10,089 nt of DNA from a bacterium (GTDB taxonomy: Bacteria > Blakebacterota > Blakebacteria > Blakebacterales > Blakebacteraceae). The translations under genes were made by a program, and so were the position numbers. The stretch lies in NCBI GenBank assembly GCA_025774205.1, contig JALGWK010000111.1:1-10089 (forward strand), in the 5' to 3' direction. Positions 2-10,089 of the stretch are shown here, piece after piece (position 1 is the stretch's first letter; the number at the start of each line of letters is the position of its first letter). The notes beneath the pieces were generated by a model. It did not search any database and was not told the origin of the DNA. It saw nothing but the letters and a program-made list of their open reading frames with translations.

Positions 2-334
2 CGGGAACGGATCGGGCGCGAGTTCGGTGACGCCTACCTGCCGGAGAAACCACGGTTCTACAAGAGCGGCAAACGCGCCCAGGAGGGTCACGAAGCGGTC
101 CGTCCCACCGACCTCGGGCGATCCCCCGCGGAGGTGAAGTCTCACCTCGACCGGGATCAACTCCGCCTCTACGAACTGATCTGGAAACGCTTCCTCGCCT
201 GCCAGATGAATCCGGCCGAGCTGGAGGGCACGACGGTCCTCACTGAGGGGGGCGCCTTCCGCTTCAGGAGCACCGGCTCGCGGTCCTCACTGAGGGGGGC
301 GCCTTCCGCTTCAGGAGCACCGGCTCGGTGGTAA
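2..334 (+). CDS. topA: DNA topoisomerase I, middle fragment (5' part cut by window edge, 3' end frameshifted)
   Basis: Type IA topoisomerase, which relaxes negative supercoils through a transient single-strand break. The frame is open from the window edge and contains the family hallmark QEGHEAVRPTDL (about residues 28-39 of the visible part), then LDRDQLRLYELIWKRFLACQ, typical of the core domain just after the active-site region. The catalytic tyrosine and the Toprim domain must lie upstream of the window. Family-like sequence continues to about position 280 (RFRSTGS). A perfect 47-bp tandem duplication then throws the frame off, and translation ends 17 residues later in unrelated sequence. 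The rest of the protein continues in another frame from about 281. As written the product would lack its C-terminal domains. Identity is very secure; whether the break is real is not. Confidence 0.93.
   Translation, partial: RERIGREFGDAYLPEKPRFYKSGKRAQEGHEAVRPTDLGRSPAEVKSHLDRDQLRLYELIWKRFLACQMNPAELEGTTVLTEGGAFRFRSTGSRSSLRGAPSASGAPARW
234..327 (+). repeat. Perfect 47-bp direct tandem duplication inside topA
   Basis: Copy 1 is 234-280 and copy 2 is 281-327. They match at all 47 positions, including a six-G run. The flanking bases differ (A at 233 against G at 280; C at 281 against G at 328), so the unit is exactly 47 bp. Because 47 is not a multiple of three, the duplication shifts the topA frame. 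Removing one copy restores RSTGS followed directly by VVTFPGYLAVY, which is normal TopA sequence. The copies show no divergence, so the event is either very recent or an assembly join in which two overlapping contig ends were not merged. Confidence 0.97.
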
Positions 335-1371
335 CGTTCCCCGGTTATCTGGCGGTTTACCGGGAGGGCAGTGACGAAGAGAACGGCGACGGAGATGAGG
401 CCACCCTGCCGGCCGGTCTGAAGGAGGGGGCCGGAGCGGACCTCAGCTCGCTGGAAGGTGAGCAGCACTTCACCAAACCGCCGCCGCGGTACACTGATGC
501 CTCTCTCATCAAGGAACTCGAGCAGAACGAGATCGGGCGGCCCTCCACCTACGCCCAGATCATCGCGGTCCTGATCGACCGGAAATACGCCGAGAGGGAA
601 AAAAGGCAGATGATCCCTACCGAACTGGGCCGGATCGTCTGCAGCCTGGTAGTTGAGCTCTTCCCCGACATCTTCCAGGTGGAGTTCACCGCCGGGATGG
701 AGGACGAACTCGACCGGATCGAATCGGGTCAGGATGAGTTCCTCAAGGTGATGACTGATTTCTGGGGCCCGTTCGACGCCGGTCTGGAGAGCGCTGACGG
801 CAACATCAGCGACGCCCTTGACGGCATCCGGATACGTCTCATGGAGCGTCTCGGTATCAATGAGGCGCCACGCTGTAAAGAGGAAGGCTGTAAAGCGGGT
901 CCCATGCATCTCAAGTTCGGGAGATACGGCTGGTTCTGGACCTGTTCCGGATGGCCCGAATGCAAAGGAACGAAGGAAGTCGATGAGCTGAAAGGTCCCG
1001 AGGAAGAACTGGAAGAGTACGACGAGAAGTGCCCCGAGTGCAGTGCCGACATGGTCGTCAAGAACGGCCGTTTCGGGAAGTTCCTGGCCTGCACCCGCTA
1101 TCCCGAATGCAAGGGGAGTATGCCTATTCCCCTCGGTGTGGACTGTCCGGAGTGCGGCCAACCCCTGGCGAAGCGGAAGACGAAGAAGGGACGAACCTTC
1201 TACGGCTGTACCGGGTATCCGGACTGTGACTTCGCCTCCTGGAGCAAGCCGGTGGCGACCAGATGCCCGACCTGTGATTACGGGATCCTCGTCGAGCGGG
1301 ACACGAAGAAGGAAGGGCACCATTACCACTGTCCGAAGTGCAGGAGCGTGATCGATCCCGACGCGCTCTGA
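328..1371 (+). CDS. topA: DNA topoisomerase I, C-terminal part with four zinc ribbons (frame-disrupted gene)
   Basis: Continuation of the topoisomerase in a second frame. The GTG at 328 is only an in-frame codon of the original gene, not a natural start; the frame is already open through repeat copy 2. Visible family motifs are HFTKPPPRYTDASLIKELEQ (residues 47-66 of this part) and IGRPSTYAQII, characteristic of the core. Four C-terminal topoisomerase zinc ribbons follow, with Cys sets 183/188/206/212, 235/238/255/261, 273/276/294/300 and 313/316/335/338. These ribbons bind single-stranded DNA and, in E. coli TopA, contact RNA polymerase. The first has a CX4C half instead of CX2C. The stop is TGA, and xerC begins 37 bp later on the same strand, so cotranscription is likely. 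Both halves look conserved, which argues against long-term pseudogenisation. Confidence 0.95.
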   Translation: MVTFPGYLAVYREGSDEENGDGDEATLPAGLKEGAGADLSSLEGEQHFTKPPPRYTDASLIKELEQNEIGRPSTYAQIIAVLIDRKYAEREKRQMIPTELGRIVCSLVVELFPDIFQVEFTAGMEDELDRIESGQDEFLKVMTDFWGPFDAGLESADGNISDALDGIRIRLMERLGINEAPRCKEEGCKAGPMHLKFGRYGWFWTCSGWPECKGTKEVDELKGPEEELEEYDEKCPECSADMVVKNGRFGKFLACTRYPECKGSMPIPLGVDCPECGQPLAKRKTKKGRTFYGCTGYPDCDFASWSKPVATRCPTCDYGILVERDTKKEGHHYHCPKCRSVIDPDAL

Positions 1372-2359: not shown

Positions 2360-2915
2360 GACGATGAAGGTCCGATCGACGACTATCCTCGGCATCGTTC
2401 GGGGGGGGCGGGCTGCCCTGGCGGGTGATGGCCAGGTGACATTCGACGAGACGATCATGAAACACGGCAGCATCAAAATCAGGAGCCTGTATGACGGAGC
2501 GGTCCTGGCCGGGTTTGCCGGCGCCGCGGCCGACGCGCTCACCCTCTTCGAACGGTTCGAGGAGAAACTGGAGACGCAGAAGGGCAACCTGCAGCGGGCG
2601 GTGGTGGAACTGGCCAAGGACTGGCGGACCGACCGCTACCTGCGAAGGCTCGAGGCCCTCCTGGTCTGCCTCGATACGGAGCGGTCGTTCATCATCTCCG
2701 GTAACGGCGATATCATCGAACCTGATGACGGGATCGTGGCCATCGGTTCAGGCAGCAGTTACGCCCTGGCCGCAGCCCGGGCGTTTATCCAGGCCAGCGG
2801 GGAGAGCGACCTGGAGAAGATCGTCGAGGACTCGATGGGGATCGCGGCGGGTATCTGTCCCTTCACCAATGACCACATCTCGGTGATGAGCCTCCCCGAA
2901 GAAGGAGAGGGATGA
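2346..2915 (+). CDS. hslV: ATP-dependent protease peptidase subunit HslV (ClpQ)
   Basis: Proteolytic subunit of the HslUV protease, a proteasome-like Ntn hydrolase that forms two stacked hexamers in the cytoplasm. The catalytic N-terminal threonine is T12 in RSTTILG and is exposed after propeptide removal. Other family marks are [54 protein letters not shown] and the C-terminal GICPFTN. The start is ambiguous. ATG at 2346 (or 2349) has an AAGGA five bases upstream and gives an 11-residue propeptide. ATG at 2364 (M7) gives MKVRS before TT, the five-residue propeptide usual in many phyla, but lacks a good ribosome-binding site. The stop overlaps the hslU start as ATGA (2912-2915), a classic coupled pair that allows balanced synthesis of both subunits. 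Confidence 0.95.
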
Positions 2916-4105
2916 GCGTGCCGAAGAGCGGAGCGAGTGAACTGACCCCGAAGCAGATCGTCGAACAGCTCGACCGGTTCGTGATCGGCCAGGATGACGC
3001 CAAGCGGGCAGTGGCGATCGCGTTGAGGAATCGATGGCGCAGGCTCCAGGTGCCCGAGGACCTGAGGGAGGAGATCGTCCCCAACAATATCATCCTGATC
3101 GGGCCGACGGGGGTGGGTAAGACAGAGATCTCACGCCGACTCGCGCTCCTCGCCAAAGCCCCCTTCATGAAGGTGGAGGCGAGCAAGTTCACCGAAGTGG
3201 GTTACGTCGGACGGGACGTGGAGTCGATCATCCGTGATCTGACCGACCTGGCGGTGAACATGGTGAAGTCGGAGTTCCTCGAGGACGTGCAGAAACCGGC
3301 TGCCAGACATGCTGACGAACGCCTGCTTGATCTGCTCCTGCCCGGGAAACCACCGCTTGCCACGCCGCATCCCTTCACCATCGAAGGGGCCGGTGTGCCC
3401 GGGGAAGGGGAGGCGGAGGGACAGCAGCAACAGCATCAGGAGGCGGAGGATTCGTGGGAGAGGACACGGGAAAAGCTGCGCAGTCAGCTGGCGGTGGGAA
3501 CGCTCGATGACCGGGAGGTGGAGATCGACTTGCCCGCCGATCAGCATCCGATGGTGTCGGTGCTCGGTCCGGTCGGACTCGAGGAGATGGGCGTCAACCT
3601 CTCAGATCTCTTCTCCAATATCATGCCCCAGAAGAGCAAGCGGCGACGGGTGAAGGTCAGCGAGGCCCGTATCCTGCTCCAGCAGGAGGAGGCCGCTAAG
3701 CTGATCGACATGGACAAGGTCATCACTGAAGCGCTCTTCCGGGTCCAGCAGAACGGGATCGTCTTCCTCGATGAACTCGACAAGGTTGCCGCGGCCGATC
3801 GTGGCTCCGAATTCGGCGGACCCGATGTCAGCCGGGAAGGGGTGCAGCGTGATCTCCTTCCGATTGTGGAGGGCAGCGTCGTTACCACCAAGTACGGGAT
3901 GGTGAAGACCGATCATGTGCTCTTCATCGCGGCAGGCGCTTTCCACGTGGCCAAGCCGAGCGATCTGATCCCCGAACTGCAGGGGCGCTTTCCGATCAGG
4001 GTGGAACTGCACAGCCTGACGACAGCGGATTTCATCCGCATCCTGACCGACCCTGCTGACCACGGAGGGCGTGACGCTATCGTTCGACAAGGAAGCGATC
4101 GATGA
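2912..4105 (+). CDS. hslU: HslU (ClpY) unfoldase ATPase, N-terminal and I-domain part; frameshifted near residue 381
   Basis: AAA+ unfoldase that feeds substrates to HslV. Visible elements are [16 protein letters not shown] (12-27), Walker A GPTGVGKT (64-71), the pore-loop motif GYVG (97-100), an I-domain (about 110-240) with an acidic/glutamine-rich stretch at 163-181, Walker [10 protein letters not shown] (283-291), and the conserved [20 protein letters not shown] (347-366) with its arginine-finger region. Family-like sequence stops at ILTDP (residue 381, base 4054). The 16 residues after it are out of frame and end at a TGA. The true C-terminal domain follows in another frame from 4056. 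About 11 normally conserved residues are absent at the junction. This is the usual gene order after hslV. As written, the product lacks the C-terminal tail that activates HslV. Confidence 0.94.
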
Positions 4106-4313
4106 GATCGCGGGAGCGGCCAGTATGGCCAACGAGCAGGCCGAGGACATCGGCGCTCGCCGGCTGCACACCATTCTGACCCTGCTGCTGGAACAGATCC
4201 TCTTCGAGGTGCCCGAGAGCCGGCAGAAGGTGTACCGGATCGAGGCCGCCAATGTGCGCGAGCGGCTCGATGATATCATCGCCGACGAGGACCTGAGCAG
4301 GTACATTCTATAA
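4056..4313 (+). CDS. hslU: HslU C-terminal domain, detached by a frameshift
   Basis: This frame begins with [10 protein letters not shown] and continues with [27 protein letters not shown] and a final [10 protein letters not shown], the canonical HslU C-terminal (sensor-2) domain and tail. In the intact protein the terminal residues insert into HslV and switch on its peptidase. GTG at 4071 could formally serve as a start, but the family match already begins at 4056, so this is the broken end of the preceding gene and not a separate gene. In E. coli HslU, 13 residues separate ILTEP from TEGV. Here only 7 nt lie between the end of the ILTDP codons (4054) and the codon of T(EGV) (4062), where 39 are expected, so about 32 nt are missing. 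argF starts 66 bp downstream. Confidence 0.93.
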
Positions 4314-5327: not shown

Positions 5328-6122
5328 TCAGAAGAGGTCGATCACCAGTCCAACAACGATATCAACCCCCGACCAGTCGAGGGAGATCGGTTTCCCCTTG
5401 ATGGGATCGGTAAAGACATCCCCGTCGCTGTCCTTCGGATCCCCCACCTGACCGAAGCGGAGCCGGATGGTACCCTGCAGCTGCAGGGGTCCACCCAGCG
5501 CCATCTCGCCGCCCCATGTAAGGGCCGCGCCTACTCCGGTGACAGTGCCCTTCCGATCGAGAGCGGCCTCCCCCCCCAGCTGTCCGGCTACCTGGAGACG
5601 CGAAGCGGGAAAGACCACTGCCGCCAGGCCGATCCCGTAGGCGAACCGCTCGGAGAACCGGAAGGTATAACGGAGTCCGGCATGGATCGGCCAGTCGTCG
5701 GTGCTGTACTCGAGGTAACTCGCCAGCGGTCCGCTCCCGCCATCGTACTCGAAGTCGAGATGTGATGACGCCCGCAGCCGTTCAACGCCGATGAACGCCT
5801 CCCACGGCCCGTTCAGACGATAGCGCAGTTCGAGGCCGAAGGTGGCCGCGTCAGTGAGCTGGTCGAGGCCCCGTTCCAGTCCGGCCCCGCCATTATCAAC
5901 CGCGGTCGTCAGTACCAGATTTTCGATCCGGATCACATCATTGACCCTGGTCTGGGAGAAGGAGGCCCAGCCCCCGAAGAGGGAGATGCTCAGCCGTTTC
6001 GGGGAGGCCGCCGGGGTGAGGGGAGCGCTCGATATCCCGGTCTGCCCGCGGACCCCGGTGGCCAGGGCCAGCGGCATCAGCAGGCAGGTCAGGAGAAGAC
6101 GTGGACGCCGGGCAGAACTCAT
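5328..6122 (-). CDS. Putative outer-membrane beta-barrel protein
   Basis: 264 residues with a Sec signal peptide (arginines at 5, 6 and 8, hydrophobic stretch 9-22, likely cleavage near VRG/Q at 26-27). The rest alternates short amphipathic strands with glycine and aromatic girdles (LSISLFGGWASF, TFGLELRYRL, WEAFIGVERL, IHAGLRYTFRF, LQGTIRLRFG, VDIVVGLVIDLF). It ends in phenylalanine preceded by alternating hydrophobics, the signature recognised by the Bam machinery. A DSDGDVFTDP segment (231-240) resembles a small calcium-binding loop. No specific family is recognised, so transport, structural or porin-like roles cannot be separated. GGAG lies seven bases upstream of the ATG. The gene follows the TPR gene on the same strand after about 100 bp and converges with argF, separated by only 27 bp with no clear terminator seen. 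Confidence 0.75.
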   Translation of the reverse strand: MSSARRPRLLLTCLLMPLALATGVRGQTGISSAPLTPAASPKRLSISLFGGWASFSQTRVNDVIRIENLVLTTAVDNGGAGLERGLDQLTDAATFGLELRYRLNGPWEAFIGVERLRASSHLDFEYDGGSGPLASYLEYSTDDWPIHAGLRYTFRFSERFAYGIGLAAVVFPASRLQVAGQLGGEAALDRKGTVTGVGAALTWGGEMALGGPLQLQGTIRLRFGQVGDPKDSDGDVFTDPIKGKPISLDWSGVDIVVGLVIDLF

Positions 6123-6215: not shown

Positions 6216-6282
6216 TCTACGGATCTTTCTGAGAAGATGTTCAGCCTCTTCTACGTATCTTGCTGAGGAGTTGTTCGGCTTC
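6216..6282 (-). repeat. Two 33-bp units coding an 11-residue repeat, out of frame by one base
   Basis: On the minus strand, unit 1 (6282-6250) encodes EAEQLLSKIRR in the TPR gene frame. Unit 2 (6248-6216) encodes EAEHLLRKIRR and is followed at once by a TAG stop. They are separated by one base at 6249. The units differ at six of 33 positions, and all six are third codon positions (two of them change the residue, Q/H and S/R). That pattern suggests both copies evolved as coding sequence in one frame, with the single-base insertion coming later. As it stands, the gene stops three residues after unit 1. Confidence 0.8.
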
Positions 6283-7050
6283 AGCTTTCCATTCCGGATC
6301 GTCGGGATCTGACTCCGGGAGACTGAGCACCGTCTCGAACTCTTCAGCGGCCATTTCCTTCTCACGCATCTCGAGATAGGTCTTGCCCAGTTCGAGATGA
6401 TGGGCACAGTCCCGCGGTTCGAGAGTGATGGCGCGCTGAAAGAGTGCTACGGATTCCTCGTTGGATGCGGGCGGGAGTCCGCCGAAGACGATCTTCGCAG
6501 CCGCCTTGAGGATGAAGCCGAGGTTGGCGACTTCACGGTGCCACCGGGCCAGGCCGTGGAGAGCGCTGGCATGCTGTGAGTCGAGGGAGATCGCCTTCTC
6601 GAAGACCTCCTTGATCTCCTTCGACATGTTCACCTTCTCTTTGCCGCCACGGAAGAGGGCCAGCCTTCCGAGCGCCTTGCCGAGCTGGTACCACCCCTCG
6701 GCGTCCTCCACTTCGATCTCTACTGCCTGGCGGGCGAACCCGGCCGCCTCCATGTAGCGGGCCTCCGATTCATCCTTGGTGGAATTCTCCGATTCTATAC
6801 GGGCCCATTCGGCGAGGTTGTCGGCCAGTTTCCATAGCAGAATGTAATTTCCCGGCGCGGCAGCCAGGGCAGGGCGGATCAAGTCCGCTGCCTCGAGGTA
6901 CTCACCGGTATCGTAGAGGGCATCGGCCCGAGCGACCACCGAGGCAACATCCTGTTGTGCCGAAGCGGGGGAAAACAGCACGGAAAAAATGAGGGCTGCG
7001 ATCGGCGCGATCGGAAGGATCACATTTTTTGACAAACGTATGCGGATCAA
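6241..7050 (-). CDS. Exported TPR protein resembling eukaryotic RMDN/FAM82
   Basis: A start at TTG 7050 is chosen because AGGAG lies nine bases upstream and because it yields an excellent signal peptide (residues 1-31, ending ASA before QQD). ATG-initiated longer versions would put non-coding promoter sequence in the protein. The mature 238 residues are alpha-helical with TPR-like units at about 35-68, 95-128, 145-178, 196-229 and 230 onward. Residues 138-261 have the motif order seen in RMDN proteins (regulator of microtubule dynamics): KEKVNMSKEIKEVFEKAISL, then SALHGLARWHREVA, LPPASNEESVALFQRA, LGKTYLEM and EAEQLL. The cellular role in bacteria is unknown; a periplasmic scaffold is an inference. 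The C terminus is probably frame-shifted: sequence just past the stop encodes a second copy of the final 11 residues, and the intact end would be at 6213. Confidence 0.8.
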   Translation of the reverse strand: MIRIRLSKNVILPIAPIAALIFSVLFSPASAQQDVASVVARADALYDTGEYLEAADLIRPALAAAPGNYILLWKLADNLAEWARIESENSTKDESEARYMEAAGFARQAVEIEVEDAEGWYQLGKALGRLALFRGGKEKVNMSKEIKEVFEKAISLDSQHASALHGLARWHREVANLGFILKAAAKIVFGGLPPASNEESVALFQRAITLEPRDCAHHLELGKTYLEMREKEMAAEEFETVLSLPESDPDDPEWKAEAEQLLSKIRRRG

Positions 7051-7096
7051 GGACGTCTTCTCCTGATGAAAAGGTAAGGTGTCACAAGTCCTGAGG

Positions 7097-7125
7097 ATGG
7101 TAGGGGTGACGGCCTGATCTGGCAA
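7097..7125 (-). promoter_or_regulatory. Predicted sigma70-type promoter for the TPR/outer-membrane gene pair
   Basis: On the minus strand, TTGCCA (7125-7120) is followed after 17 bp by TACCAT (7102-7097): five of six and four of six consensus matches with ideal spacing. Transcription would begin near 7090, about 40 nt before the TTG start. It would probably also serve the outer-membrane gene downstream, for which no separate promoter was recognised. Confidence 0.45.
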
Positions 7126-7334: not shown

Positions 7335-7955
7335 ATGCTCGATCTTTTCTACGATGGTGGATGGGCCATGTACCCGCTGCTGGCCACCCTGGTATTCGGT
7401 CTGGCTGTGATATTTGAGCGTTTCTGGGCGCTGTCACGGGCCAGCATCAACACCCGGAAATTCATCCAGAGGATCAAGGTCGCCCTGCGCGATGAGGGGC
7501 TCTCGTCAGCGCAGGAGATCTGCGCCAGCACCCGCGGACCCGTGGCTTCGATCTTCCACGCCGGACTCGTCCGGGTAGACCGTGGCCTGGAGCAGGTTGA
7601 GAAGGCCATTGAGAACGCGGGGACGATCGAGATGTCCTTCCTGGAGAAGGGGCTCGTCTGGCTCGCCACTGTCGCGAACGTTGCCCCCATGCTCGGGTTC
7701 CTCGGAACCGTGTCGGGTATGATCGGCGCCTTCGCTTCGATCGCCGAGGCCGGTGACGTGAACGCCACGATCGTTGCCAGCGGTATCTCGGAAGCCCTGA
7801 TCACGACCGCTACCGGTCTGGCTATCGCCATCCCGATCCAGGCTGCTCACAACTACTTCGTGTCGCGGGTCGACCGTCTGATCATCGACATGGAGGAGAG
7901 CGCCAACGATCTGATCGATTACCTGATCGAGATGGAGATGGAGAAGACCTCCTAA
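7335..7955 (+). CDS. exbB: MotA/TolQ/ExbB proton channel family protein
   Basis: Inner-membrane stator subunit that forms a pentameric proton channel with ExbD-type partners and turns proton-motive force into mechanical work at the outer membrane. At 206 aa it fits the family. The topology is classic: a first transmembrane helix at about 10-30, a cytoplasmic loop, and long helices at about 107-133 and 146-172. The signature PMLGFLGTVSGMI (118-130) and ITTATGLAIAIP (156-167) are present; T160 in the last motif lies where the channel threonine is expected. A strong AGGAGG (7321-7326) stands eight bases before the ATG. It is followed closely by two exbD genes, so the three form one operon. TolQ is the alternative identity, but no tolA, tolB or pal is nearby and the tandem exbD genes favour a TonB-type system. 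Confidence 0.92.
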   Translation: MLDLFYDGGWAMYPLLATLVFGLAVIFERFWALSRASINTRKFIQRIKVALRDEGLSSAQEICASTRGPVASIFHAGLVRVDRGLEQVEKAIENAGTIEMSFLEKGLVWLATVANVAPMLGFLGTVSGMIGAFASIAEAGDVNATIVASGISEALITTATGLAIAIPIQAAHNYFVSRVDRLIIDMEESANDLIDYLIEMEMEKTS

Positions 7956-7964
7956 GGGGGCCCG

Positions 7965-8360
7965 ATGGCAGGTAAGAGAAGTGAGCCTGAGATCCCGACC
8001 GCCTCGATGGCGGACATCGCGTTCCTGCTGATCATCTTCTTCCTGGTGACCACCAGCTTCAACCAGGAGATGGGCATCGGTCTGACGCTCCCCCCTGTCA
8101 CTGAGGGAGCAGAGCTTCAGGTCCGGAAGAAGAACATTCTGAATATCTGGGTCAATGCCGCCGGGGAGATCCTCCTCGGGGAAGAGATCGTATCGCTCCA
8201 GCAGGTCGAACGGGAAGTGAGACGACGGGTGGCGGAGAACCCGCTCCTCATCGTGTCCCTGAAGGCTGACCGTGAGACCGACTACGACATCTTCGTCCAG
8301 ATACTCGATCAGTTGCAGAAGGCGGAGACACCCAAAATTTCGCTCGCTGAGCCGGATTAG
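7965..8360 (+). CDS. exbD: ExbD/TolR family protein, first copy
   Basis: Single-pass inner-membrane partner of ExbB. Of its 131 residues, the short cytoplasmic N terminus leads to IPTASMADIAFLLIIFFLVT (10-29), the family transmembrane helix. D17 is the conserved aspartate that is protonated during proton transfer. The remaining periplasmic domain (about 45-128) includes NILNIWVNAAGEILLGEE and LLIVSLKADRETDYDIFVQI, typical of the ExbD fold that engages peptidoglycan or TonB-like partners. An AAGGGGG sits just before the ATG, nine bases after the exbB stop. The next exbD starts five bases after this stop. It is a divergent paralogue of that second gene, and the pair probably forms a heterodimer inside the ExbB ring. 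Confidence 0.92.
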   Translation: MAGKRSEPEIPTASMADIAFLLIIFFLVTTSFNQEMGIGLTLPPVTEGAELQVRKKNILNIWVNAAGEILLGEEIVSLQQVEREVRRRVAENPLLIVSLKADRETDYDIFVQILDQLQKAETPKISLAEPD

Positions 8361-8365
8361 GAATA

Positions 8366-8785
8366 ATGCCGAAGATCTCAAGAAAACAGAAGGCCGACGT
8401 CGGGATCCCGACCGGTTCAATGGGTGATATCGTGTTCCTCCTGCTGATCTTTTTCATGGTAACCACGGTTTTCGTGGAGTACCGGGGGATCGCAGGAATC
8501 GAACAGCCTCGCGCCGAGATGACTAAACGGTTGGAAAAGGAGCGGGGTATCGTCCACATGTGGATCGCCGAAGATGGTGAGATCAATATCGATGATATGA
8601 CCATCGTGATGTCTGACATCGCCGGCCTGGTCTACCCGAAGCGGGTCGCCGAACCGAGACTGATCATCTCGATCATCGCTGATGTGGGGGCTCCTTACGG
8701 GACTGTCGCGGACGCCATGCTGCAGTTGCGGGAGGCCGACGCGCTGCAGGTGAACTTCGCGACGCTTTACGCCTACGCCCGCTAG
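8366..8785 (+). CDS. exbD: ExbD/TolR family protein, second copy
   Basis: Second ExbD paralogue, 139 residues. IPTGSMGDIVFLLLIFFMVT (14-33) matches the helix of the first copy almost residue for residue and keeps the proton-relay aspartate (D21). The periplasmic part (for example GIVHMWIAEDGEINIDDMTI and PRLIISIIADVGAPYGTVAD) has diverged strongly and ends in a tyrosine-rich tail. AGGA lies just before the ATG, inside the stop region of the preceding gene, so translation is likely coupled. Conservation of the membrane segment with divergence of the periplasmic domain suggests the two copies share the channel but contact different periplasmic partners; that is an inference. No TonB gene follows. 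Confidence 0.9.
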   Translation: MPKISRKQKADVGIPTGSMGDIVFLLLIFFMVTTVFVEYRGIAGIEQPRAEMTKRLEKERGIVHMWIAEDGEINIDDMTIVMSDIAGLVYPKRVAEPRLIISIIADVGAPYGTVADAMLQLREADALQVNFATLYAYAR

Positions 8786-8806
8786 GACAAGCGGATCGAT
8801 CTGAGT

Positions 8807-8828
8807 CGACCCCGCCCCGGCGGGGTCG
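8807..8828 (+). terminator. GC-rich hairpin after the second exbD
   Basis: A perfect 10-bp stem, CGACCCCGCC with GGCGGGGTCG, closes a two-base loop (or a 9-bp stem with four bases). No T-run follows, so on its own it is not a standard intrinsic terminator. It may stabilise the mRNA 3' end or assist the terminator just downstream. Confidence 0.5.
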
Positions 8829-8839
8829 TGCATTTCTGC

Positions 8840-8878
8840 AGGGTACCGGACCTGAACGTGCGGTACCCTTTTTATTTT
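8840..8878 (+). terminator. Intrinsic (rho-independent) terminator of the exbB-exbD-exbD operon
   Basis: GGGTACCG (8841-8848) pairs perfectly with CGGTACCC (8861-8868) across a 12-base loop, with an extra A-T pair at 8840/8869. A T-rich tract (five T, A, four T) follows immediately. This is the clearest terminator in the window and separates the motor operon from the next gene. Confidence 0.85.
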
Positions 8879-8924
8879 ATCCGGGTCATATTGGTGTCGC
8901 GACTGCGATGACAGTCTGATTTGA

Positions 8925-8954
8925 TTGAACAACCGTTCGCGGACCACCGTATCT
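8925..8954 (+). promoter_or_regulatory. Possible promoter for the Yip1-type gene
   Basis: TTGAAC (8925-8930) and GTATCT (8949-8954) are 18 bp apart, a modest sigma70 match (about four of six at -35, weaker at -10). It sits between the strong terminator and the next ATG, where a promoter is needed, but other placements are possible. Confidence 0.25.
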
Positions 8955-8983
8955 GATCAGAACCCCAGCGGAGTGATAGCGGG

Positions 8984-9754
8984 ATGGACGTTGAACTGAA
9001 TCAAGCCGGGCCGGACCCGGACGGGCTGTCAGGCAGCAAGGAACCGGTATCGCTGTTCCAGCGGATGATCCTGGTATTCAGCGAACCGGCAGCAGCGTTC
9101 AATGGGATTGCTGCCCACCCCAGATGGATCGGGGCCTTCCTGCTGGTCATGGTGGTCGGGATTCTGAGCACACAGGCGATCTTCCCTCACATCATGGAAG
9201 CTCAGCAGAATGCGATGCAGCAGACTGCGCCCGACCTCCCCCCGGAGCGGGCCGAGGCGATGATGGAACGGTTCTCCCCGGAGCACGAGGTCAGCCAGCG
9301 GATATGGATGGTTTTCACGCCGTTCATCGTGGGGATGCTGGAACTTCTGATCCTGGCCGGGCTCTTCACCTTCGGATGCAGCTTCCTCCTGGGGGGGGAG
9401 GCTTCGTTCAAACAGGTGATGGCGGTGGTAGCCCACGCGCTCCTCATCAGGGTACCGAAGGCACTACTGGTGACGCCCCTCATCCTCATGAAGGGGAGCA
9501 TGAGCGTTTCCACCAGCCTGGCGGTGCTGATCCCCATTGATCGGTGGATGACCCCTCTCGGGGTACTCCTCCAGCAGGTTGATATATTCAAGCTCTGGGG
9601 CATATCGCTTCTGATCACCGGACTGGCGGTGGTGTATCGCTTCTCGAAGGGCAAGGTCGCGGCCCTGGTGATCGGATTCTTCATCTTTTGGGTCGTCGTA
9701 CAGGTGGCGGTAGTGATGCTCTTTTCCAACCTGTTCGCGGGATTCACGGGCTGA
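8984..9754 (+). CDS. Yip1-family integral membrane protein
   Basis: 256 residues. A polar N terminus carrying SLFQRMILVFSEPAAAFNGI (23-42) precedes helices at about 48-67, 108-136, 141-168, a weaker one at 175-195, 203-220 and 225-251. The short amphipathic lead-in ending in a P-x-x-x-F motif, followed by five or so helices, is the pattern of bacterial Yip1-domain (PF04893-like) proteins; I recognise it by layout and by the N-terminal motif. Biochemical function is unknown for the family. GGAG is 13 bases before the ATG and GCGGG closer. A TolC-type gene follows after 25 bp on the same strand, so the protein is likely part of, or regulated with, an export system. DUF-type permeases of other families are the alternative. 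Confidence 0.7.
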   Translation: MDVELNQAGPDPDGLSGSKEPVSLFQRMILVFSEPAAAFNGIAAHPRWIGAFLLVMVVGILSTQAIFPHIMEAQQNAMQQTAPDLPPERAEAMMERFSPEHEVSQRIWMVFTPFIVGMLELLILAGLFTFGCSFLLGGEASFKQVMAVVAHALLIRVPKALLVTPLILMKGSMSVSTSLAVLIPIDRWMTPLGVLLQQVDIFKLWGISLLITGLAVVYRFSKGKVAALVIGFFIFWVVVQVAVVMLFSNLFAGFTG

Positions 9755-9779
9755 TGGTAGACAGCTCAGGAGATTGACG

Positions 9780-9890
9780 ATGGTTACGTTGTCACGCGCC
9801 ATTCCGGTGTTCTCGATACTCGCCCTGATCCTTGTTCCGCCGGGCGTCACGGAGGGACAGGAGTCCCTCACTCTGCGGGAATGTTGTTGA
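9780..9890 (+). pseudogene. TolC-type outer-membrane efflux protein, N-terminal piece ending at a frameshift
   Basis: ATG at 9780 has AGGAG seven bases upstream. It encodes a clear signal peptide (R6, hydrophobic 8-21, likely cleavage near TEGQ at 24-27), followed by SLTLREC, the start of the usual TolC-family opening (LTLxExxxxALxxNP). The frame then hits TGA at 9888-9890. In the +1 frame from 9886 the expected continuation VEQALRYNPQVQ follows exactly, so one extra T within TGTTGTTG (9882-9889) accounts for the break. The piece alone would give a 36-residue product with no function. Confidence 0.85.
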
Positions 9891-10089
9891 GCAGGCGCTG
9901 CGGTACAATCCCCAGGTACAGAGGTCGGCCCGGCAGCTTGCCCAGAGTGAACTGCAGACCAGGCAGGCCGCTTCCTCACTCCTTCCGAGCGTCTCGCTGT
10001 CAGGCTCGTTCTCCCGGTACACCAGTGTCTCACCCCAGCGTCTCCTCAATCCGGCCACCAACCAGATCGTGGAGGGGAGCGCCACCGCC
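9886..10089 (+). CDS. TolC-type outer-membrane efflux protein, continuing off the window (frame-disrupted)
   Basis: Open to the window end. It reads VEQALRYNPQVQRSARQLAQ, then an alpha-helical repeat with ELQTRQAASSLLPSVSLSGS, the coiled-coil-to-barrel pattern of the first outer-membrane efflux domain. TolC proteins form trimeric channel-tunnels that connect periplasmic adaptors to the outer membrane and export drugs, peptides or proteins. Joined to the signal peptide piece upstream with one base removed, spacing to the family motif is exact. Position after the Yip1-type gene suggests an operon that would continue with an HlyD/MacA-like adaptor and an ABC or RND transporter, which lies outside the window. 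The substrate cannot be told from this fragment. Confidence 0.88.

Follow-up and report, generated by a model that had tools for sequence, protein, structure and literature searches.

A divergent, exported bacterial member of the RMD1-3 (RMDN) family and its possible role in lipid handling at the cell envelope

The window, i.e. the whole stretch of 10,089 nucleotides of bacterial DNA that was analysed, carries on its reverse strand a gene for a TPR protein that resembles the eukaryotic RMDN proteins. The features of the gene, its product and its neighbours are as follows, in window coordinates.

6241-7050, reverse strand: coding sequence of the exported RMDN-like TPR protein, 269 amino acids plus stop, with a TTG start at 7050-7048 (from the translation)
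7059-7064, reverse strand: Shine-Dalgarno-like AGGAGA, 8 nt 5' of the TTG (from the sequence)
7097-7125, reverse strand: promoter-like site TTGCCA-17-TACCAT, facing the RMDN-like gene (site scan of the region)
6958-7050, reverse strand: signal-peptide-like N-terminus, residues 1-31, ending in SPASA before QQ (from the sequence and the hydrophobic segment found across the family)
6256-6945, reverse strand: TPR domain made up of helices only, residues 36-265; in an AlphaFold model it aligns to that of human RMDN3/PTPIP51 (PDB 7cc7) with Z 26.9
6274-6843, reverse strand: match to Pfam PF21033 (RMD1-3), residues 70-259, profile positions 40-227 of 235
6457-6531, reverse strand: family-specific linker that lies between TPR units and contains an extra helix, residues 174-198, VANLGFILKAAAKIVFGGLPPASNE (helix 179-189 in the model; sub-profile)
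5328-6122, reverse strand: probable outer-membrane protein gene, 118 bp downstream of the RMDN-like gene and conserved in the sister species
7335-8785, forward strand: divergent tolQ/exbB gene and two tolR/exbD genes (Pfam PF01618 once, PF02472 twice)

The TTG start is kept in the sister species (locus L006), and the intergenic region holds two promoter-like sites, one per direction, against 0.4 expected. The N-terminus of the protein consists of a basic n-region (RIRLSKN), a hydrophobic core and the junction of ASA with QQ; judged by these sequence features rather than by a dedicated predictor, it looks like the Sec signal peptide that an earlier note on this DNA had claimed. The five motifs quoted in the earlier note, KEIKEVFEKAISL, SALHGLARWHREVA, LPPASNEESVALFQRA, LGKTYL and EAEQLL, were likewise all found in the 269-residue translation, in the order given there.

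No terminator-like site was found by the site scan between the RMDN-like gene and the gene at 5328-6122. The product of the latter has a signal-peptide-like start, eight predicted strands and a terminal F, and is probably an outer-membrane protein. Because its fold model was poor (pLDDT 31.5, with two sequences in the alignment) and no Pfam family was matched, a barrel is likely, short of shown. Thus, of the earlier description of the RMDN-like gene as lying upstream of an outer-membrane barrel gene, the same-strand adjacency and the outer-membrane features hold, while the barrel fold itself is likely. On the forward strand (7965-10089), the single tolQ/exbB gene is followed by the two tandem tolR/exbD genes and a gene for a membrane protein with a Yip1 domain, after which a TolC-like (OEP) gene begins.

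The order argF / OMP-RMDN / tolQ is the same in the sister species (G001), in which the RMDN-like protein is 72% and the outer-membrane protein 64% identical to that of the window; four genomes of the phylum were sampled. MlaD is present in the window genome, as expected of an organism with an outer membrane. The genome also encodes a paralogue of the RMDN-like protein with 45% identity (45-48% across the genus). Taken together, this second copy, the conservation of the locus in the sister species and a PF21033 score over the cut-off make the window gene more than chance. In both species of the genus, the paralogue gene (L002, 1507-2322; L007, 5953-6753) and a large FtsX/MacB-type permease gene share 4 bp at the stop of the latter, which suggests translational coupling. 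Two apparent frameshifts were seen elsewhere in the window. The hslU gene (2912-4313, forward strand) appears broken, with a 397-residue frame that stops at 4105 and a C-terminal part in another frame from about 4071, and is an intact frame of 478 residues in the sister species; the break is possibly an assembly error. The topA gene (2-1371, forward strand) shows an apparent frame change at about 328-334.

The window protein matched PF21033 over the curated cut-off in a single stretch (30.9 against 26.7 bits), and the sister-species protein did so over the same stretch with 33.7 bits. Of 386 sampled genomes, 26 had a PF21033 match over the cut-off, as against none of the 14 control genomes, which included E. 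coli, Caulobacter and Bacteroides, and hence we regard the profile as specific. The PF21033 matches L037 and L040 were discarded as false positives, since both proteins are RNA-polymerase-beta-like. In another reading, the window protein is a plain exported TPR protein that looks like RMDN only through the repeat consensus they share. In support of such a reading, TPR_11 gave the window protein, taken alone, a summed score of 42.3 bits against the 30.9 bits of RMD1-3 over one long stretch, other generic TPR models matched as well, and the paralogue scored 22.9 bits against RMD1-3, under the cut-off. The relation to RMDN becomes clear only with relatives such as L063, which scores 123.6 bits against RMD1-3; relatives from other phyla score 60-125 bits against RMD1-3, higher than against any TPR model.

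A profile seeded from the window protein was built from eight sequences that were selected without PF21033. The A3 set was gathered partly via PF21033, so that a search with it is circular; the ranking of 7cc7, the sub-profile and the block permutation all used window-seeded sequences only. With the window-seeded profile, 7cc7 (human RMDN3) came out ahead of every other natural protein in the PDB, with 1.7e-21 over a single collinear stretch; MamA was next at 5e-12, and designed consensus TPRs outscored 7cc7 only through the summing of many short repeats. A sub-profile of 73 residues (126-198), which takes in the linker, also placed 7cc7 first in the PDB (9.2e-05), ahead of OGT (0.005), and the linker aligned to human RMDN3 nearly gap-free. 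When human RMDN3 was permuted in blocks of 34 residues, its score against this profile, 78.7 bits in the native order, averaged 32 bits and reached 59.5 at most. The score is thus order-dependent and the non-repeat linker matches, both of which speak against a shared repeat consensus as the sole source of the resemblance.

The structure model agrees with this result. The AlphaFold2 model (pLDDT 87.7, pTM 0.82) has 12 helices past the signal segment, and Foldseek ranked 7cc7 first with E 3.7e-09 and TMt 0.86. VIA-align also placed 7cc7 first, with Z 26.9 and an rmsd of 2.6 over 223 of 227 residues, followed by 2pl2 (Z 22.2), TPAT 8g52 (21.6), BstC 7t1s (20.6) and TatT (about 19.6); the pilotins PilF and PilW were among the matches at Z about 17.5. 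High Z values by themselves are frequent among TPR folds; what counts here is the gap of 4.7 to the second match, together with the coverage of nearly the whole domain. In the model, the helical packing is the same as that of RMDN. We consider it very improbable that the window protein is an ordinary TPR protein, and that reading was set aside as ruled out by the block permutation, the sub-profile and the structure.

Hence, the homology to RMDN proposed in the earlier note is supported by profile, structure and tree, with the qualification on the profile side that the window protein alone scores higher against summed TPR_11 than against RMD1-3. The window protein is a divergent but real member of the RMD1-3 family and is a homologue of the eukaryotic RMDN1-3 TPR domain.

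The RMD1-3 family is widespread across many bacterial lineages. In the phylum of genome G330, 65 of 149 genomes were over the PF21033 cut-off, with scores of up to 125 bits across nearly the full profile, and a hydrophobic N-terminal segment was present in all 49 family members checked by a simple hydropathy test. Weak or partial matches (L035, L036 and L039) were omitted from the alignment and trees. In maximum likelihood trees, human RMDN3 grouped with the G330 phylum (support 100/96, and 100/100 once long branches were removed), and placing human RMDN3 in one clade with the window group was rejected (p-AU 0.010); monophyly of the bacterial sequences of the G330 phylum to the exclusion of human RMDN3 was not rejected (p 0.36). 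Eukaryotic sampling in these trees was one sequence, 7cc7, on a long branch. On this thin evidence, the grouping of human RMDN3 with the G330 phylum and the rejection of its grouping with the window suggest that eukaryotic RMDN are kin of the bacterial RMD1-3 family and that the window protein lies on a different branch. The bacterial and human sequences thus form one family, as the earlier note would have it, while human RMDN3 has closer bacterial kin than the window clade. The window protein was also considered as an RMDN3/PTPIP51 orthologue; it has no long N-terminal half and, with the clade rejected as above, it is an exported bacterial variant of a known family and not an RMDN3 orthologue.

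The gene neighbourhoods of relatives were read for clues to function. The phylum of genome G327 has an RMDN gene in 15 of 47 genomes, and the 16 loci were read. In the family of G327, fadA lies directly 3' of the RMDN gene in 14 of the 16 loci and is followed by fadB in 13 (the contig of L101 ends before it), a divergent fadD lies upstream in 14 of 16 and fadL is found about 2.3 kb away in 12 of 16, usually followed by a GDSL lipase gene. Two loci depart from this pattern: L103 has fadD and fadL, with fadA not matched there, and L104, the other of two copies in genome G563, has none of fadA, fadB, fadD or fadL. All 15 genomes of the family have at least one fad-linked RMDN locus. The divergent arrangement GDSL lipase-fadL-fadD / RMDN-fadA-fadB (L047, L052, L095-L103, L105-L108) is kept within this one bacterial family, and from its gene content it is a candidate locus for fatty-acid uptake and degradation with an unrecognised exported component.

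A second link to fadL was found among the Zixibacteria relatives, in which fadL lies directly downstream in three of three, with an esterase gene next where the contig extends; the Zixibacteria relative that was scanned had no PF21033 match and no extra linker helix. No genome searched has more than seven matches to PF03349 (FadL), and the probability of two fadL-linked lineages among 19 by chance is about 0.005, a post hoc value since the linkage was noticed prior to testing. In several families of the G330 phylum, a conserved YjbH-like outer-membrane-type gene lies directly upstream of the RMDN gene (L041, L042, L109, L112, L113, L063, L071, L073, L076 and L078-L080), and in G322 the neighbour is an OMP_b-brl gene. 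In G336, the RMDN gene is part of a LolA-like/FtsX/FtsX/RMDN/ABC cluster. Genes of the family thus lie repeatedly beside genes for outer-membrane proteins and for fatty-acid uptake. Neighbours of several other lineages have no evident link to lipids (uvrA-like, ubiE-like and folB-like genes). Among further families, the same-strand upstream gene resembles, by eye, a penicillin-binding protein gene in two (L055, 2677-4821; L056, 2653-4914), and in family f176 the RMDN gene of both genomes is immediately followed by a gene for an M14 zinc carboxypeptidase (L050, 5813-6811; L051, 4015-5016).

From these neighbourhoods, the FtsX/MacB permease gene beside the paralogue, and the structural neighbours, which include the sterol binder BstC and TatT, we propose that the window protein is a periplasmic lipid or fatty-acid carrier, with a probability of roughly one half. 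In the proposed mechanism, the curved TPR solenoid would hold a hydrophobic ligand, and this lipid or fatty acid would be shuttled across the periplasm between an outer-membrane protein and inner-membrane partners; for the window copy, which is not beside fad genes, the outer-membrane partner would probably be the product of 5328-6122. This would resemble the action of PTPIP51, which has been shown to bind and transfer phospholipids and to move phosphatidic acid between membranes in vitro (PMC9239997).

The main rival of a lipid carrier is an RMD1-3 member that acts as a protein-binding adaptor at the envelope, i.e. a scaffold or a pilotin-like helper of the neighbouring outer-membrane protein. 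TPR domains bind peptides more often than lipids, outer-membrane-type neighbours occur in the window lineage as well as in the G330 phylum and G322, and PilF and PilW are among the structural matches. However, the strongest linkage is to genes of fatty-acid uptake and degradation and not to assembly machinery, and the fold is far closer to PTPIP51 than to the pilotins. We therefore place the lipid carrier above the scaffold on account of the fad linkage and hold the adaptor to be a possible but less probable role; the scaffold role at the envelope raised in the earlier note is accordingly not favoured.

Another option is a solute-binding protein like the T-components (TAtT/TPAT/BstC type) that feeds a transporter. 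Three such proteins (TPAT, BstC and TatT) rank among the eight best structural matches, and one relative in the A2 set matches PF16811 (TAtT/BstC) at 1.9e-4. For Treponema, a relay from FadL-like proteins via TP0956/0957 has been proposed (PMC8407342). The window protein, however, had no PF16811 match at E up to 10, the genome had no TAtT match and there are no TRAP genes nearby; TAtT membership was thus rejected and the T-component option as a whole is improbable.

The exported bacterial branch, with its genetic links to FadL, FadD and FadAB, puts forward an ancestral function that can be tested and hints that a periplasmic step may lie between FadL and FadD. A lipid carrier of the bacterial envelope may have been the starting point of the RMD1-3 family, and we infer the direction of any transfer between bacteria and eukaryotes from the breadth of the bacterial family. 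A more tentative and rather doubtful extension is that eukaryotic RMDN came from bacterial exported lipid or fatty-acid carriers, with a donor lineage other than the mitochondrial ancestor. RMDN3/PTPIP51 is a tether, and is thought to be a lipid feeder, at ER-mitochondria contacts; if the extension were true, lipid transfer by PTPIP51 at these contacts would be inherited from inter-membrane work in diderm bacteria, alongside FadL-type porins. What makes the locus of interest is that its relatives are linked to fatty-acid genes and that human RMDN3 falls within a group of bacterial proteins in the tree. The literature searched, which covered few subscription journals, contained no paper that connects RMDN with bacteria.

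Among known systems, TTC0263 of Thermus thermophilus (2pl2) is similarly a bacterial TPR protein with a close fold (Z 22.2, rmsd 2.1), but the alignment is shorter (192 residues) with 16% identity, and TTC0263 has no RMDN link in this analysis. BstC (7t1s) and TatT/Tp0956 (3u64) share a periplasmic helical TPR-like fold with the window protein (Z 20.6 and 19.5). These PF16811 proteins are implicated in the handling of sterols or of organic acids and lipids, and BstC, which resembles TatT, binds sterols (PMC10942540); unlike them, the window protein lacks a PF16811 match and has neither TRAP nor bst genes nearby. The RMD1-3 proteins of the G330 phylum, e.g. L063 of genome G429, belong to the same family and also have a signal-peptide-like N-terminus and an outer-membrane-type neighbour gene. 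They differ from the window protein in score (123.6 bits for L063 against 30.9), in their grouping with human RMDN3 and in having a YjbH-like neighbour as opposed to the outer-membrane protein of the window. Human RMDN3/PTPIP51 has a long N-terminal half, with a membrane anchor and a VAP-binding segment, before its TPR domain, and 7cc7 begins near residue 239, whereas the window protein has about 35 signal-peptide-like residues in that place. The window protein is bacterial, exported and 22% identical to the human protein, and stands in another clade than the closest bacterial kin of RMDN3, yet the two agree in fold over 223 of 227 residues, in the collinear match that includes the linker between TPR units, in the RW motif and in the length of the domain.
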